A DNA stretch of 36,992 nt, from positions 1-36,992 of the forward strand of contig JAOAEC010000004.1 in assembly GCA_026416975.1 (NCBI GenBank). Reading direction: 5' to 3'. The position numbers were made by a program, and so were the translations under genes. Position 1 is the first letter of the stretch. Each line of letters begins with the position of its first letter. Positions 1 through 36,992 of the stretch are shown here, piece after piece. A model generated the notes under the pieces. It did not search any database, was not told the DNA's origin, and worked only from the letters and a program-made list of their open reading frames with translations. This DNA comes from Patescibacteria group bacterium (GTDB lineage Bacteria; Patescibacteriota; Microgenomatia; UBA1406; GWC2-37-13).

Positions 1-17
1 TAATTATATATACATTT

Positions 18-47
18 AAGTATATATTTAAATATATACTTTGTCAA
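18..47 (-). promoter_or_regulatory. Left-facing promoter with a 24-bp palindromic operator
   Basis: On the minus strand a TTGACA -35 box (47 to 42) is followed after 17 bases by a TATACT -10 box (24 to 19), so transcription would start near 12 and leave the window. A perfect 24-bp palindrome, 18-41 (half site AAGTATATATTT), covers the -10 box and the whole spacer. This is the usual place for a dimeric repressor site. The regulated gene lies outside the window; the regulator is unknown. Confidence 0.6.
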
Positions 48-31189: not shown

Positions 31190-31817
31190 AAAAAATAAAC
31201 CAGCTGAAAAAATCGTGGTTGATTTTTTAACCGGTTTGATTTTGGTTTGGCGAAACTTATTCCTTTTGATTTTTTATCCTTACAAAATAGTAAGAAAAAT
31301 TAGTTTAGAGGGAGATTGGTATCAGGTTTGTTTGATCTTTTTGGGTGTTTTTGGTTATTTTAAGTTTGTTTATTTTTTAAGAGACAAACCTTATCCGGCG
31401 AGCTTGACTTTTTTGTTTTTTTTGATTAATTTTTTTTTAACAGTGAGTTTTTTTTGGCTATTTGCTTGGTTAATTGATAATAAAAAAACTAAGAAAGATT
31501 ATTTAAGTCTGATTCACACTTTTTCTTACTCGCTTTTGCCAACTTTAATCTGGTTTTTGACGGTTTCTATTTTTTATCTGATTCTTCCTCCGCCAAGAAC
31601 GACCTCGATCTTTGGAATTTCTTTTAGTGTTTTTTTCTTAGCTTTTTCTTTTAGTCTTTTAATCTGGAAGTTGATTTTGGTTTTTTTGAGTTTAAGATTT
31701 TCTCTGCGGTTGGGTTTTTACCGGATATTTTATTTTTTGATTTTTTATCTTTTGTGGTTTTTACCTTACTCAGTCTTTCTTTATCATTTTCGGATTTTTC
31801 GCGTGCCGTTTATTTAA
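31179..31817 (+). CDS. Yip1-like multi-pass membrane protein
   Basis: A 212-aa protein with about five membrane helices and a polar N-terminus. A segment near the start, VWRNLFLLIFYPYKIVRKI, and the following helix pattern resemble the Yip1/YIP1-like family, whose bacterial members have no established function. It is the last gene of the second ECF operon. It ends four bases into the convergent DUF262 gene, so the two transcripts overlap at the ends. Confidence 0.65.
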   Translation: MVFKKNKPAEKIVVDFLTGLILVWRNLFLLIFYPYKIVRKISLEGDWYQVCLIFLGVFGYFKFVYFLRDKPYPASLTFLFFLINFFLTVSFFWLFAWLIDNKKTKKDYLSLIHTFSYSLLPTLIWFLTVSIFYLILPPPRTTSIFGISFSVFFLAFSFSLLIWKLILVFLSLRFSLRLGFYRIFYFLIFYLLWFLPYSVFLYHFRIFRVPFI

Positions 31818-33613
31818 AGTTTTTGGTAATATTTTTTGATTTTTTCCGCCATTAATTTTCTTCTTTGATGTAAAAACTCTTCAAAGTTTTTATTATCTGC
31901 CTGAAAAATAAGTTCGGGAATACAGTTTTCTTTAAGATTTCTTTTTAAATCAACTTCATCATCAATCTCTCCTAAGACAAGTTTTTTGGTTTTAATCTGT
32001 TTTAAAATAATATCCATATATTCTTTGGGCGGTTTGTTTCCAATTCTGATATTAAGGTTTTTATCCATAAAAACATAGTTGGCGATTTGATTATAGGATT
32101 TTTTATCAAATCCGTATTTTTTAAGATAATTTTTTGGAAAAATATGATGAACATCACCTTGAGTAATCACCATATTTTCAACAGTTATCTGCGGAGATAA
32201 AAAGCCTTCGTTTTTTTGTTTTATTTGGGCGGCTAAATAAACATTAAAATGAGGACTGGTGATAATGGCTGATTCTAATTTTTGAATTAAACCGCTTTCC
32301 CAAAAATCAGGCCCTACTACCGAAGTTTCAATGCTGTTTAAGAAATCCAAAGGATTTTTATGGTGAAAATTTTTAATATCTTCATCAATTTTGCTTTCTG
32401 GCGAGCCAGAATATCTTTCAGTTAAAATTAATAAAACAAACCAACGTCTGACAACTTTATTAATAATTTCCGGTTTAATTTTTTTATTGATTAGCAAAAG
32501 ATACAAAGCATAAGCAAAGTTGATTGTCATTTTTGAACGAATTAGTTGATTGTGAATAAATCCAGCCGATCTGATAATTTTTAAAAAATTTTTAAAATGA
32601 TATTCATTAACAAAATCAAAAAAAGAGGCTTTGAATTTTTTATAAGTCTCTTCAATAATTTTTTCTTCAAACTTTTTTGTTTCAAAGTTTCTACCAGAAA
32701 GAAGAGAAACTAAATCTCTTAATCGGCCTCGTTTAAAACCGGAGGTAAAAACTACTCTGATGACATCGCGATAATCAGGGTCGTAAAGATCATCAATTTC
32801 ATTTTTAAGCCATTGAATTTTAGGAAAATATGATGTCTGGCAGAAATTTTGATGCTCTTCTTTTAGATCATAAAAAAAATTGGGGTTGATAGCCATATGG
32901 GAAAAATAATCAATGGCTTTTCTTAAGTTTAAACCGTCATATTTTTCATTAGCAGCCATCCGACTCATTGCAAAATCAGCTTGATTGAGCATTACGCCTT
33001 GACTGTTAATCCGGACAAAAATTTCAGTGACAGTTTCAATATCTAAATCACCTGATAGTTGGATAACACCAATCTGACGGTTTAAGATATTTTTTAATTT
33101 AGTGATTTTTTCATTTAAAAAATCAGGAGAAACATCAGGATTTTTTGAACAATAATCATTAATAAATTGAAAGTTGGTGGGATTATTAATAATTGTAGAA
33201 ATATCATCAATCCGGCTTTTATCTTTTTTTGTTTCTGAAACACTCACTTCAAACTCCTCGGTTTTTGGATTAAAAGCAATAATAATTCTTCTTTTTTTAA
33301 AGTTTTTATCAACAATTTCTAAACCTAAAAGAGCGGTGCTTAAAGCGATAATTCTTTGTTGGCCGTCAATTAAAATTTGTTTTCCTTCAGAGCTTTGGCC
33401 GTTTTTTAACTCAACTTTTGGAGAAAGCCAGGTGATAAGATAGCCTATTGGGAAACCTTTATATAAAGAATCAATCAGGTCGCGAACCTTATCCGCGCTC
33501 CAAATAAATGGTCGCTGAATTTCTGGAATGGCGATTTGGTTGCTGGTAATCCAAGAGAGAATATGACTGATATAGAACTGATTAACAGAGTACTTTTGAA
33601 TCTCAATGTCCAT
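31814..33613 (-). CDS. DUF262/HNH protein, GmrSD-like
   Basis: A 599-aa protein of the type IV restriction family (GmrSD). The DUF262 half has IPEIQRPFIW (29-38), YKGFPIG (51-57) and DGQQR (83-87), a ParB-like nucleotide-binding motif. The C-terminal part carries VHHIFPKNYL and, further on, NLNIRIGNKPP (about 488-528), an HNH-type nuclease site as in DUF1524. Single-chain forms of this size exist. It would cut modified or foreign DNA using nucleotide hydrolysis. No methyltransferase lies nearby. It opens the defence-like region, transcribed towards the second sigma operon. Confidence 0.85.
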   Translation of the reverse strand: MDIEIQKYSVNQFYISHILSWITSNQIAIPEIQRPFIWSADKVRDLIDSLYKGFPIGYLITWLSPKVELKNGQSSEGKQILIDGQQRIIALSTALLGLEIVDKNFKKRRIIIAFNPKTEEFEVSVSETKKDKSRIDDISTIINNPTNFQFINDYCSKNPDVSPDFLNEKITKLKNILNRQIGVIQLSGDLDIETVTEIFVRINSQGVMLNQADFAMSRMAANEKYDGLNLRKAIDYFSHMAINPNFFYDLKEEHQNFCQTSYFPKIQWLKNEIDDLYDPDYRDVIRVVFTSGFKRGRLRDLVSLLSGRNFETKKFEEKIIEETYKKFKASFFDFVNEYHFKNFLKIIRSAGFIHNQLIRSKMTINFAYALYLLLINKKIKPEIINKVVRRWFVLLILTERYSGSPESKIDEDIKNFHHKNPLDFLNSIETSVVGPDFWESGLIQKLESAIITSPHFNVYLAAQIKQKNEGFLSPQITVENMVITQGDVHHIFPKNYLKKYGFDKKSYNQIANYVFMDKNLNIRIGNKPPKEYMDIILKQIKTKKLVLGEIDDEVDLKRNLKENCIPELIFQADNKNFEEFLHQRRKLMAEKIKKYYQKL

Positions 33614-33817
33614 AAGAGTTTTATTAAGATTTTTTATATTATATTACAAAAATGACATTATTACAAAACAAAACAAACAAAAGAACTTTAATAAATTTCA
33701 CCCAATTTTTCAATTTAGATTTATTAGATTTATTAAGTTGCTGTTTTTTTATTTCTTCTTTGTAGATTTTTATCTTTTAGGTTATAAAAAATAGGGGGGG
33801 TTGGTAGAATAGAAAAC

Positions 33818-34001
33818 ATGTTAACCTTCATAACAAATGTTGGGTCTTCTAATTTTAAAAAAAGATTAGTTGATTTGATTAAAAAAGCACAGAATTAAAA
33901 TTTTTAGTTGGTTTTTTTACTTTTCAAGAATAAAAGAATTATATGAGTAATTAAAAGCTAAATTGAATCCTGTAAAAAATTTTGTATTGTTAAAGAAATA
34001 A
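33818..34001 (+). pseudogene. Remnant of a phospholipase-D-domain/helicase gene
   Basis: An ATG at 33818 starts MLTFITNVGSSNFKKRLVDLIKKAQ, which stops at 33896-33898. The neighbouring frames continue ELKFLVGFF, then YFSRIKELYE, then LKAKLNPVKNFVLL, each interrupted by stops. The composite resembles the N-terminus of large helicases with a phospholipase-D-like nuclease domain found in defence loci. Nothing of the rest remains. A run of seven G lies at 33794-33800. The other parts of 33614-34038 show nothing I can name. Confidence 0.5.
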
Positions 34002-34038
34002 TATTAATTTCAGAAATATTATGTATTATATAAATGTA

Positions 34039-34067
34039 TTGACTTTTTGATAAGGATATGGTATACT
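34039..34067 (+). promoter_or_regulatory. Strong promoter of the 71-aa/GHKL module
   Basis: TTGACT (34039-34044), 17 bases, TATACT (34062-34067), preceded by TGG at 34059-34061 as an extended -10. The predicted start near 34074 leaves a leader of about 22 bases. No Shine-Dalgarno sequence is seen before ATG 34096. It is among the best promoters in the window. Confidence 0.7.
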
Positions 34068-34095
34068 TATTAAGGGTTTAAAAATTAAAACTAAT

Positions 34096-34311
34096 ATGAA
34101 AAACAAAAGAGAAAGGTTTATCAGACTTGCTTCATATAGAACAAATGAAATTCTTAAACGACTTAAAATTCTTGGAAATTGCGCTAATAGGAGTGCTTAT
34201 GAGTATTATGAAGAGGATATCGAAAAAATATTTTCTTCTATTGAAAAAAAAGTTAGAGAAATCAAAGCAAAATTTCATTATCCAAAAAAGATAGAGGAAT
34301 TTAAATTGTAA
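34096..34311 (+). CDS. Small helical protein paired with GHKL ATPase
   Basis: A 71-aa, strongly charged, all-helical protein: RERFIRLASYRTNEILKRL, then NCANRSAYEYYEEDIEKIF, then IEKKVREIKAKF. It has no membrane segment and no Cys pair that would suggest zinc binding. I recall short proteins with this pattern (RLA-R-NE-L--L--LGN-NR--Y-Y) in defence-like loci, but I cannot confirm it. It could be a regulator, an antitoxin-like partner or a DNA-binding subunit. Its stop lies one base before the ATG of the ATPase gene, so the two are translated together. Confidence 0.75.
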   Translation: MKNKRERFIRLASYRTNEILKRLKILGNCANRSAYEYYEEDIEKIFSSIEKKVREIKAKFHYPKKIEEFKL

Positions 34312-34312
34312 T

Positions 34313-36613
34313 ATGTTTAATCTTTTTTTAAAAATATTACAGGCAAGAAATGAAGAAGATGTTACTTCAATAATAAAAAATAATAGCGAATTAAGCAATA
34401 AATCTAATTGGCACCCTTTAGATGATAAAGAAAATAATTTTGGTGAAATAGAGGCACAGGGAAGAAATCCTGAAAGGGCCCTTATTGAAAAGATAACTAA
34501 TGGAATTGATGCTATTTTAATGAAAGAATGTAGAGATCGAGGAATTGATCCAGAATCTCCTAACGCACCCAAGACCATAAATGAGGCATTAAGTCTATTT
34601 TTTAATATAGAAGAAGGAGACTTAAGTAGTATTCCAGAGGATAAAAAAGATAAATTAGCCTCATTAATTTATGTTGTTGCTGAAAATTTAGAAAATAAAA
34701 CCGCCAATTTCTACATTTTTGATAAGGGTGAAGGACAACATTCTGATAAATTCAAAGACACCTTTCTTAAATTGGGTGGGAATAAATCAAAGACCTATTT
34801 TGTTCATGGAAGATTTGGGACAGGTAGTTTTGGCGTTCTTCCTAATTGTGGTGATAATAAATATCAATTAATACTTTCAAAAAGAGGAGTAAAAGGAGAA
34901 AAAAGCTCATGGGGTTGGACAATTATAAGAAAAAATCGTCCTAAAGATTTACAATCTAAACATGCATGGTATGAATACTTTCTTCCTAATGGATCTATTC
35001 CAAGATTTGATGATGTTGAAGATTTAAGTAAAATAATAAAAGACTGTATAGGATATGATAAATTAGACTTATTAGATTTTAAACATGGAACACTATTAAA
35101 GCTATATAATTATGATCTTGTTAATTCGTCAGACATAGATAGAGATTTATATAGAATTTTTAATCGTTATCTTTTTTCACCAGCCTTACCGTTTAGAATA
35201 TTAGACGCACAGGTTAAAGGACATGTGGGGCCTGGTAAGGAAATTGATGGAAATGTTAACAGGCTTCGAAAAAACAAAGAACAATTAGAACAAAATGAAA
35301 AATTACAAATACAAAACGTTGAGTTGCCAAAACTAGGATTGATAAATATAGATATTTATATTGCTAAAAGAAATCCAGGCAAAAAAAGTTTTATTGAAAG
35401 TGAAAAAATTACTACGAATAACGAAGCAGTTTTTTTTATTAGAAACGGTCAATCTCATGGAGAGTTTTCAAGACAGTTTATAAGAGATGATCTTGGTTTA
35501 GAATATATAGCCAAAGATATTGCTATATATATTGATTGTACAAATACGCCACCAAGCGAATTTGATGAAATATTTCCTCCTACAAGAGATTCTTTGCGAG
35601 AAAACAAACACAGAGTCCTTGTTGAAGAAATATTATTAAAAGAATTGAGAGAATTTGAACCTTTAAAAGAAATTAATACGAGAAGAAGAAACGAAATAAT
35701 ATCTGAAAATATAGAAAAAACTAAAGACTTTGAATCTTATATTAATGATTTATATAATTTAGACCCAGCTCTTAGAAAGTTTTTAAGAGGGCAATTACAA
35801 GTAACCGATTTTTCTAGAGGAGGAGATAAAAATGAAGGAGAATATCATGGTAAGCTTTTCCCTACTTTTTTATTAATAAAAGATAAAGAAATAAAAAAAA
35901 CCGGATATAAATCAATTCCAATAAATTCATACGTAAGGGTGGATTTTGAAACAGATGCGTCAAACGACTATTTATTTAGAGAAAAAGATAAGGGTGAACT
36001 TCAATTTACCTATAGAGGATTAATAAGATCATATAAATTATACAACGGCAAATTAACGCTTAAGATTGTTCCACCAAAAAATAGTAAAGCTTATAGTGAA
36101 GAAAAATTTAAAATCATTATGACTAGACCATATGATAAACCGCTAACTCAAGAATTTAATATCAAATATGTTTCTGAAATAACACCACACACTAATCCTT
36201 CAACCCCTCCAAAACCTCCTAAAAATAATCAAATTAAGTTACCAAATAAACAAATTTTAACAAAAGAAGAATGGATAACAAACTATGATAAAAACGATCT
36301 TTGTGAATTTGTAACAGAAAAAAATAATGATTTATATATTCTTAAAGAAGTATTAATAAACGGTGATTTTCAACCTCTTTATGAATATTTAAAACAACAA
36401 AATCTTGCACAAAAAAAAATTGACGAGATGAAAAAACAATTTTTTTTAGCAACTTATATATCAGCTCTAATCATTCATAAAGATTTTGCTTCTGATTCAA
36501 CATATAAGAGAGAAACCGTTAGAACAGTAATGACAAAATTAGGTAAATGTTTACCATTTATATTATTTACAATACAAAAAAAATGGATTAAAGAATTAAA
36601 AATAACAGAATAA
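34313..36613 (+). CDS. GHKL (HSP90/MORC-like) ATPase, putative defence protein
   Basis: A 766-aa protein whose N-terminal 180 residues form a GHKL ATPase: E59-x3-N63-x2-D66 (EKITNGIDAI), D137-x-G139-x-G141 (DKGEG), and the late loop GRFGTGSFG (166-174). The middle (about 200-450) may be a transducer-like domain with FIRNGQSHGEF and PPTRDSLRE, resembling HSP90/MutL-type paralogues. A beta-rich segment (about 510-620), a Pro-rich linker (STPPKPPKNN) and a helical end follow. Related GHKL proteins occur in prokaryotic restriction and conflict systems. No nuclease motif is evident. It pairs with the 71-aa protein and has a separate strong promoter. Confidence 0.8.
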   Translation: MFNLFLKILQARNEEDVTSIIKNNSELSNKSNWHPLDDKENNFGEIEAQGRNPERALIEKITNGIDAILMKECRDRGIDPESPNAPKTINEALSLFFNIEEGDLSSIPEDKKDKLASLIYVVAENLENKTANFYIFDKGEGQHSDKFKDTFLKLGGNKSKTYFVHGRFGTGSFGVLPNCGDNKYQLILSKRGVKGEKSSWGWTIIRKNRPKDLQSKHAWYEYFLPNGSIPRFDDVEDLSKIIKDCIGYDKLDLLDFKHGTLLKLYNYDLVNSSDIDRDLYRIFNRYLFSPALPFRILDAQVKGHVGPGKEIDGNVNRLRKNKEQLEQNEKLQIQNVELPKLGLINIDIYIAKRNPGKKSFIESEKITTNNEAVFFIRNGQSHGEFSRQFIRDDLGLEYIAKDIAIYIDCTNTPPSEFDEIFPPTRDSLRENKHRVLVEEILLKELREFEPLKEINTRRRNEIISENIEKTKDFESYINDLYNLDPALRKFLRGQLQVTDFSRGGDKNEGEYHGKLFPTFLLIKDKEIKKTGYKSIPINSYVRVDFETDASNDYLFREKDKGELQFTYRGLIRSYKLYNGKLTLKIVPPKNSKAYSEEKFKIIMTRPYDKPLTQEFNIKYVSEITPHTNPSTPPKPPKNNQIKLPNKQILTKEEWITNYDKNDLCEFVTEKNNDLYILKEVLINGDFQPLYEYLKQQNLAQKKIDEMKKQFFLATYISALIIHKDFASDSTYKRETVRTVMTKLGKCLPFILFTIQKKWIKELKITE

Positions 36614-36665
36614 TACATAATTGACTCAATATTTAGAATTTGAATAATTTTGACAATACAATTAA

Positions 36666-36992
36666 ATGAAACTTTACCAACAGCGGGAAAAAAATTTATA
36701 TCATCCTAATTCAAAAGAGCCATTTCGAATCTCCCGCTCAAAAATGGAGTTGTTTTTAGAGTGTCCGAGGTGTTTTTATTTAGATAGACGATTAGGACTT
36801 AATCGGCCCGAGTCTCCGGCTTTTACTTTAAACAGCGCCGTTGATCATCTTCTGAAAAACGAATTTGATTTATTAAGAAAAAAAGGCCAGAGAAATCTTC
36901 TGATGAAAGAGTTTGATGTCAACGCCATACCTTTTAATCATCCAGATTTTTACAAATGGCGCGATGATGAAAATCATTTTATTGGCGCATCC
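36666..36992 (+). CDS. PD-(D/E)XK nuclease-superfamily protein (partial)
   Basis: The window ends inside this gene after 109 codons. The visible part, RISRSKMELFLECPRCFYLDRR, then TLNSAVDHLLKNEFDLLRKKG, matches the N-terminus of PD-(D/E)XK-type proteins with Cas4/RecB-like Cys pairs (CPRC). These are common in CPR genomes. The catalytic residues lie beyond the edge. A weak promoter (TTGACT 36621-36626, AATAAT about 16 bases on) precedes it, so it need not be cotranscribed with the ATPase. Confidence 0.75.
   Translation, partial: MKLYQQREKNLYHPNSKEPFRISRSKMELFLECPRCFYLDRRLGLNRPESPAFTLNSAVDHLLKNEFDLLRKKGQRNLLMKEFDVNAIPFNHPDFYKWRDDENHFIGAS

Follow-up and report, generated by a model that had tools for sequence, protein, structure and literature searches.

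A small first gene shared by dissimilar GHKL ATPase operons: a putative autorepressor of a candidate defence module

Introduction

What does a short, basic protein do directly in front of a large GHKL ATPase, and do the two genes form a defence system? The questions are raised by a pair of genes in a Patescibacteria genome (672 kb, 78%-complete), located in a 36,992-nt stretch of DNA, here called the window. An earlier note, made from the sequence alone, had read the 71-aa protein and the 766-aa ATPase as one module under a strong shared promoter, with a plausible role in an undescribed kind of defence.

The locus

The features of the locus are collected in Table 1. The two reading frames are present as the earlier note had described them, with one base (34312) between the stop of the first and the start of the second. 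The best-matching named relatives of both genes are found in Patescibacteria (Roizmanbacteria, Curtissbacteria and others).

Table 1. Features of the locus and approximate domains of the ATPase
Feature	Position	Strand	Remarks
Standalone GmrSD-like gene	31814-33613	minus	PF03235, 8e-31; adjoins the module
Remnant of a phospholipase-D/helicase-type N-terminus	33818-33995		several stops; between the GmrSD-like gene and the module
Sigma-70 promoter TTGACT-N17-TATACT, TG-extended -10	34039-34067	+	sole 10-of-12 match with extended -10 in 33600-36992
Putative operator, 21-bp palindrome ATAAGGATA-TGG-TATACTTAT	34050-34070		9-3-9, one mismatch; overlaps spacer and -10
71-aa gene	34096-34311	+	ORF, first gene of the operon
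766-aa GHKL ATPase gene	34313-36613	+	ORF, second gene; presumed effector
GHKL domain	about residues 1-270 of the 766-aa protein		AlphaFold2
S5-like transducer domain	about residues 280-430 of the 766-aa protein		AlphaFold2
Helical stalk	about residues 432-491 of the 766-aa protein		AlphaFold2
Beta domain	about residues 515-620 of the 766-aa protein		AlphaFold2
C-terminal beta/helical part	about residues 645-766 of the 766-aa protein		AlphaFold2

Both upstream neighbours that had been pointed out were recovered: the GmrSD-like gene matches Pfam, and the decayed stretch behind it resembles the beginning of uninterrupted frames, 736 and 1128 aa long, in genomes of the same family. The GmrSD-like gene was not found beside the other loci with the small gene. 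A PD-(D/E)XK-like gene that starts at 36666 was rejected as a third module gene: 27 of 57 relatives have a match to it, whereas members of the ATPase family are rare. An empty-site test gave no clean insertion boundary, as the upstream neighbours are not conserved beside this gene in relatives. No C5 methyltransferase partner was found in the 78%-complete genome; its two PF01555 matches are interrupted by stops or lie at a contig end.

The ATPase

The 766-aa protein belongs to the GHKL superfamily, since it possesses the N, G1 and G2 motifs of the Bergerat fold. The GHKL residues E59, N63, D66, D137, G139, G141, G166 and G171 are invariant in 20 relatives with 22-68% identity, which bears out the earlier reading of the motifs as intact. 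Pfam gave a match to PF13589 (HATPase_c_3) at 9e-4, which is weak and under the Pfam cut-off, and there was no match in PADLOC, NCBIfam or a PDB sequence search. The AlphaFold2 model (pLDDT 80) from which the domain limits were read matched Hsp90, MORC3/MORC2, TopoVI-B and MutL in Foldseek and, among viral proteins, phage RIIA. As had been noted, a nuclease, helicase or methyltransferase domain was not detected by Pfam, PADLOC or NCBIfam, profiles that an over-diverged nuclease may escape.

The family is patchily distributed (3 of 380 genomes of the phylum) and occurs on seven plasmids, haloarchaeal ones included; phage records contained no member. Its tree divides into clades, and that of the window ATPase includes L094 and L099. 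An N4/N6 DNA methyltransferase lies beside ten members (L053, L056, L059, L062, L066, L068, L105, L106, L108, L113), several of which carry an extra beta repeat; none was seen near members of the window's clade. This methyltransferase next to ten sister ATPases suggests a restriction-like defence. A C5 methyltransferase is found with two haloarchaeal relatives and a helicase with at least one. The closest relative (68% identical, L094:7207-9531) is split into frames of 579 and 174 aa.

The paraMORC or prokaryotic MORC ATPases of Iyer, Abhiman and Aravind (2008, PMC2292703) resemble the window protein in their N-terminal GHKL domain, intact motifs, S5-like domain and sporadic distribution; in both, there is linkage to methyltransferases, helicases and nucleases of restriction systems. 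The sections of that paper that were consulted make no mention of a small first gene. Most of the named subgroups do not fit. The GhXhhpXXRhl S5 motif of MORC is absent from 29 of 29 family members scanned, and the ExxxH near the S5 end, expected in paraMORC2, is absent in the window and sporadic elsewhere. A C-terminal restriction-endonuclease-fold match, as in paraMORC3/Shedu type I-D, was not obtained with Pfam, PADLOC or NCBIfam, nor was the C-terminal TIR of paraMORC4 detected, and the HxH of paraMORC5 is missing. ParaMORC1 is defined by GHKL+S5 with a conserved C-terminal extension of its own, within restriction-modification operons; in the present family a conserved C-terminal extension was seen, as were methyltransferase neighbours in sister clades. 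The window ATPase is probably a new subgroup of this MORC-like/paraMORC group rather than something of an entirely unknown kind.

Other known systems share single features with the locus. In VcSduA (Shedu type I-D, PMC12137116) a GHKL ATPase is the regulatory module of a phage-defence protein, but that protein has a C-terminal PD-(D/E)XK nuclease (DUF4263), for which no counterpart was found in the window ATPase. In 13 loci the small gene stands first before GHKL genes of the type of the PADLOC candidate PDC-M33 (A/B/C; C = DUF6339); the window ATPase obtained no PADLOC match and so does not match PDC-M33A. Two plasmid relatives of the ATPase adjoin a GHKL protein of HEF_HK-like build (HEF_HK/Response_reg_2, PMC8011034). 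HEF_HK proteins are a separate double-ATPase family, however, and the window locus has neither HEF_HK nor Response_reg_2. The earlier view of an undescribed system therefore stands in part: the pair matches no named system in the libraries and papers searched, whereas the ATPase falls within the group described in 2008.

The small protein and its partners

The 71-aa protein is basic (pI 9.7; family median 9.8) and has homologues in many phyla. Among near relatives 18-38 of 77 codons differ synonymously and 2-10 non-synonymously, indicating a genuine protein under purifying selection. Pfam, NCBIfam and PADLOC contain no relatives, nor is there a PDB name; against solved chains the family profile gave no match better than E=0.4. 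The predicted fold, a two-helix hairpin, lies outside the recognised DNA-binding folds and had no match in a fold search of the PDB. A resemblance of this layout to bHLH proteins is speculation. The C-terminal Phe-Lys-Leu tail is conserved and has low confidence in the model.

A scan of the whole GTDB gave 75 genome loci, many from metagenome-assembled genomes, to which 11 viral loci were added; it used a 5-row alignment, the 16-row version being too diverse. The gene occurs in Patescibacteria, Omnitrophota, Chloroflexota, Bacteroidota, Methanomicrobiales, Heimdallarchaeota, Thorarchaeota and others, and it normally heads a tight operon: in 64 of 77 cases no more than 25 bp separate it from the start of the next gene. 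Standalone homologues are present in cyanophages and viral contigs (L038, L039, L124; PHROG 35258, unknown function); these copies could interfere with the host system. In a Lachnospiraceae genome, longer proteins contain the small domain as a fusion (L111:6965-9424), and one of them has a SprT-like/metallopeptidase match.

Retrieval by small-protein similarity means that every locus has the small gene but not necessarily the ATPase. A GHKL ATPase, assigned by a regular expression and reading of the sequences without a curated profile for every member, accompanies the small gene at 70 of the 74 evaluable genome loci. L076, L087, L089 and L111 have no adjoining recognisable GHKL gene, L093 ends too early to be evaluated, and L108 has its ATPase upstream of the small gene. 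A GHKL ATPase stands behind nine of ten small genes in a separate phylum sample; counted from the ATPase side in an unbiased phylum sample, two of three genomes have the small gene. The adjacency thus recurs very widely, and the proposal that the two genes are one module held.

Less well supported is the idea of a specific partnership with this ATPase. When downstream proteins are grouped by sequence, the GHKL ATPases behind the small gene fall into mutually dissimilar clusters: c0, c1 (the window type), c3 (PDC-M33A), c4, c8, c11, c25 and c71. Eight is a working count, as c0 is heterogeneous through the DNA-binding accessory proteins connected to it. ATPase genes have been exchanged behind a common header. 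Loci L062 and L065 are 87% identical in DNA from about -90 to the end of the small gene, and a downstream patch of 113 bp is 84% identical, but the ATPase genes in between belong to different clusters and are unrelated. The small gene also fronts a few operons of other kinds, namely an N4/N6 methyltransferase with an MvaI/BcnI endonuclease and no GHKL gene (L076:6974-9557) and, as a second copy, a CD-NTase-like gene with Cap15 in a CBASS-like operon (L081:10714-12601). Because unrelated ATPases stand behind near-identical copies of the small protein, it does not belong to the window ATPase alone.

Two alphaproteobacterial plasmids carry the small gene and a GHKL ATPase followed by a GajA-like gene (L036) or by an ATP-binding gene and UvrD (L034), an arrangement that resembles Gabija plus an additional GHKL component. 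At 15 loci (e.g. L059:4921-6402, L085:3444-5012) large serine recombinases are found close to the operons, which suggests that the operons travel as recombinase-borne cassettes.

The promoter region

The strong extended -10 promoter that the earlier note had assigned to the pair was confirmed; as a class, promoter-like matches are in modest excess (28 against 20.8 in shuffles). In 55 of 97 loci the small gene has a TTGA[CT]N-16..18-TANNNT match upstream. The palindrome that overlaps this promoter differs at one position from ATAAGGATATGNTATCCTTAT, which occurs without mismatch at the same promoter position in L040 (c1), L042 (c4) and L043 (c0), and with three mismatches in L053. It was noticed by eye and then tested, with shuffle and position controls from the same loci: five upstream regions are within three mismatches of ATAAGGATATGNTATCCTTAT, against 0 of 1,940 shuffles, and the six sites in 1.15 Mb of loci all lie just upstream of a small gene. 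Strong inverted repeats occur at the operator position of 11 of 97 small genes and of 13 of 682 control ORFs (p=4e-5). In four loci 19 of the 21 operator columns (90%) are invariant, compared to 25% upstream and 7% downstream.

In the window genome the site of Table 1 is the single one with up to two mismatches. The sole independent control, a scan of the phylum, found the palindrome nearly absent, as few of the sampled genomes carry the small-protein clade concerned; a match with two mismatches in genome G216 equals the level of the reversed-pattern control and was taken as chance. A recognisable palindrome is present in a minority of loci, and operator sequences vary among small-protein clades. 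Other clades appear to have other palindromes, CTAATATTAG near the -35 in L094, L099 and L110 and TATTTTAAAATA in the spacer of L048 and L096, both read by eye. Upstream similarity tracks small-protein identity, even across ATPase clusters (Mantel r=0.31, p=0.001), and a common ATPase cluster adds nothing consistent. It could partly stem from linked inheritance: the promoter spacer alone tracks the small protein no better than its flanks do, so that binding and linked inheritance are not separated.

Possible roles of the two proteins

In view of the above we consider it moderately likely that the small protein is the autorepressor of its operon and the ATPase the effector of a self-regulated defence operon. 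The gene for the small protein stands first in the operon and has a palindrome over its own promoter, and autorepression is the simplest account of a promoter, palindrome and small gene common to operons with different effectors. The promoter evidence thus suggests a regulator rather than a structural partner. In this mechanism the 71-aa protein probably dimerises and binds the palindrome across spacer and -10, which would keep expression low until some trigger releases the repression. The effector would be a GHKL+S5 ATPase, dimerising and of the MORC/MutL/Hsp90/topoisomerase-VI-B type, and its ATP-dependent closure on foreign DNA would probably block that DNA; alternatively the ATPase may recruit something that destroys the DNA, no nuclease being visible. 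Family knowledge and genomic context make DNA clamping of the MORC/MutL kind most plausibly the defence activity. Comparable autoregulatory roles are held by C proteins and by CapW/BrxR.

A closer parallel in position and size, as judged from its description, is RptR, a small repressor encoded by the first gene of a restriction island, which acts as a dimer and autorepressor on palindromes over the -10 box (PMC12255303). The same paper also refers to C proteins and CapW/BrxR. RptR is built of four helices, and its 6-bp sites (TAGCTA) form direct repeats, whereas the family studied here has two helices, goes with a 21-bp palindrome and occurs in front of GHKL ATPases in both bacteria and archaea.

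Some observations sit uneasily with autorepression: the predicted two-helix hairpin has neither a recognised DNA-binding fold nor a PDB match, most loci are without a recognisable palindrome, and phages carry standalone copies. Moreover, distances between small proteins and ATPases correlate within clusters c1, c3 and c4, and the correlation in c3 (Mantel r=0.57) would fit a physical partner as well. A serious rival, which we consider unlikely on balance, is that the small protein serves as a structural subunit or cofactor, binding a surface common to all these GHKL ATPases, with the palindrome being bound secondarily or by another factor. The association with GHKL ATPases of about 95%, across about eight clusters, would agree with this, and the conserved tail, modelled with low confidence, would fit a docking peptide. 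Yet the ATPases behind near-identical small proteins have no detectable similarity, the small-protein phylogeny follows the ATPase cluster weakly (34 changes against 44 expected, minimum 38 in 200 shuffles), operons lacking a GHKL gene are fronted too, and several relatives of the window ATPase have no small gene.

These last ATPases, found on plasmids and in one sampled phylum genome, also bear on a toxin-antitoxin-like pair, in which the small protein would neutralise a toxic ATPase and possibly repress its own operon like many type II antitoxins. A small first gene, a larger second one, tight spacing and a promoter palindrome are typical of type II operons, but the ATPase relatives without the small gene speak against such a pair, as does the need for a single small protein to neutralise many unrelated effectors, and we regard it as improbable. 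Least probable is a role of the GHKL ATPase in housekeeping or DNA repair, with the small gene as a leader. The fold is indeed like that of MutL and Hsp90, but the patchy distribution, the plasmid carriage, the serine recombinases and, in the wider set, neighbours such as GmrSD, SIR2, methyltransferases, GajA and CBASS genes argue against it. The defence role once proposed is strengthened by this context of restriction-modification genes, methyltransferases, PADLOC candidates and CBASS genes.

Significance

One short signature gene ties together about eight dissimilar types of GHKL-ATPase operon, some of which sit in restriction contexts while for most no defence role has been assigned, and it offers a handle for finding more. 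If the small protein is an autorepressor, this would explain how the operons are kept quiet and how effectors are exchanged behind one promoter-regulator header. A bolder and doubtful possibility is that this unnamed two-helix family of about 75 aa is a master regulator, working across bacteria and archaea, that defines and mobilises a whole superfamily of GHKL-ATPase defence operons, with ATPases swapped behind a constant header of promoter, operator and regulator. It would then represent a new prokaryotic DNA-binding fold, based on a helix-loop-helix build and palindromic operators.
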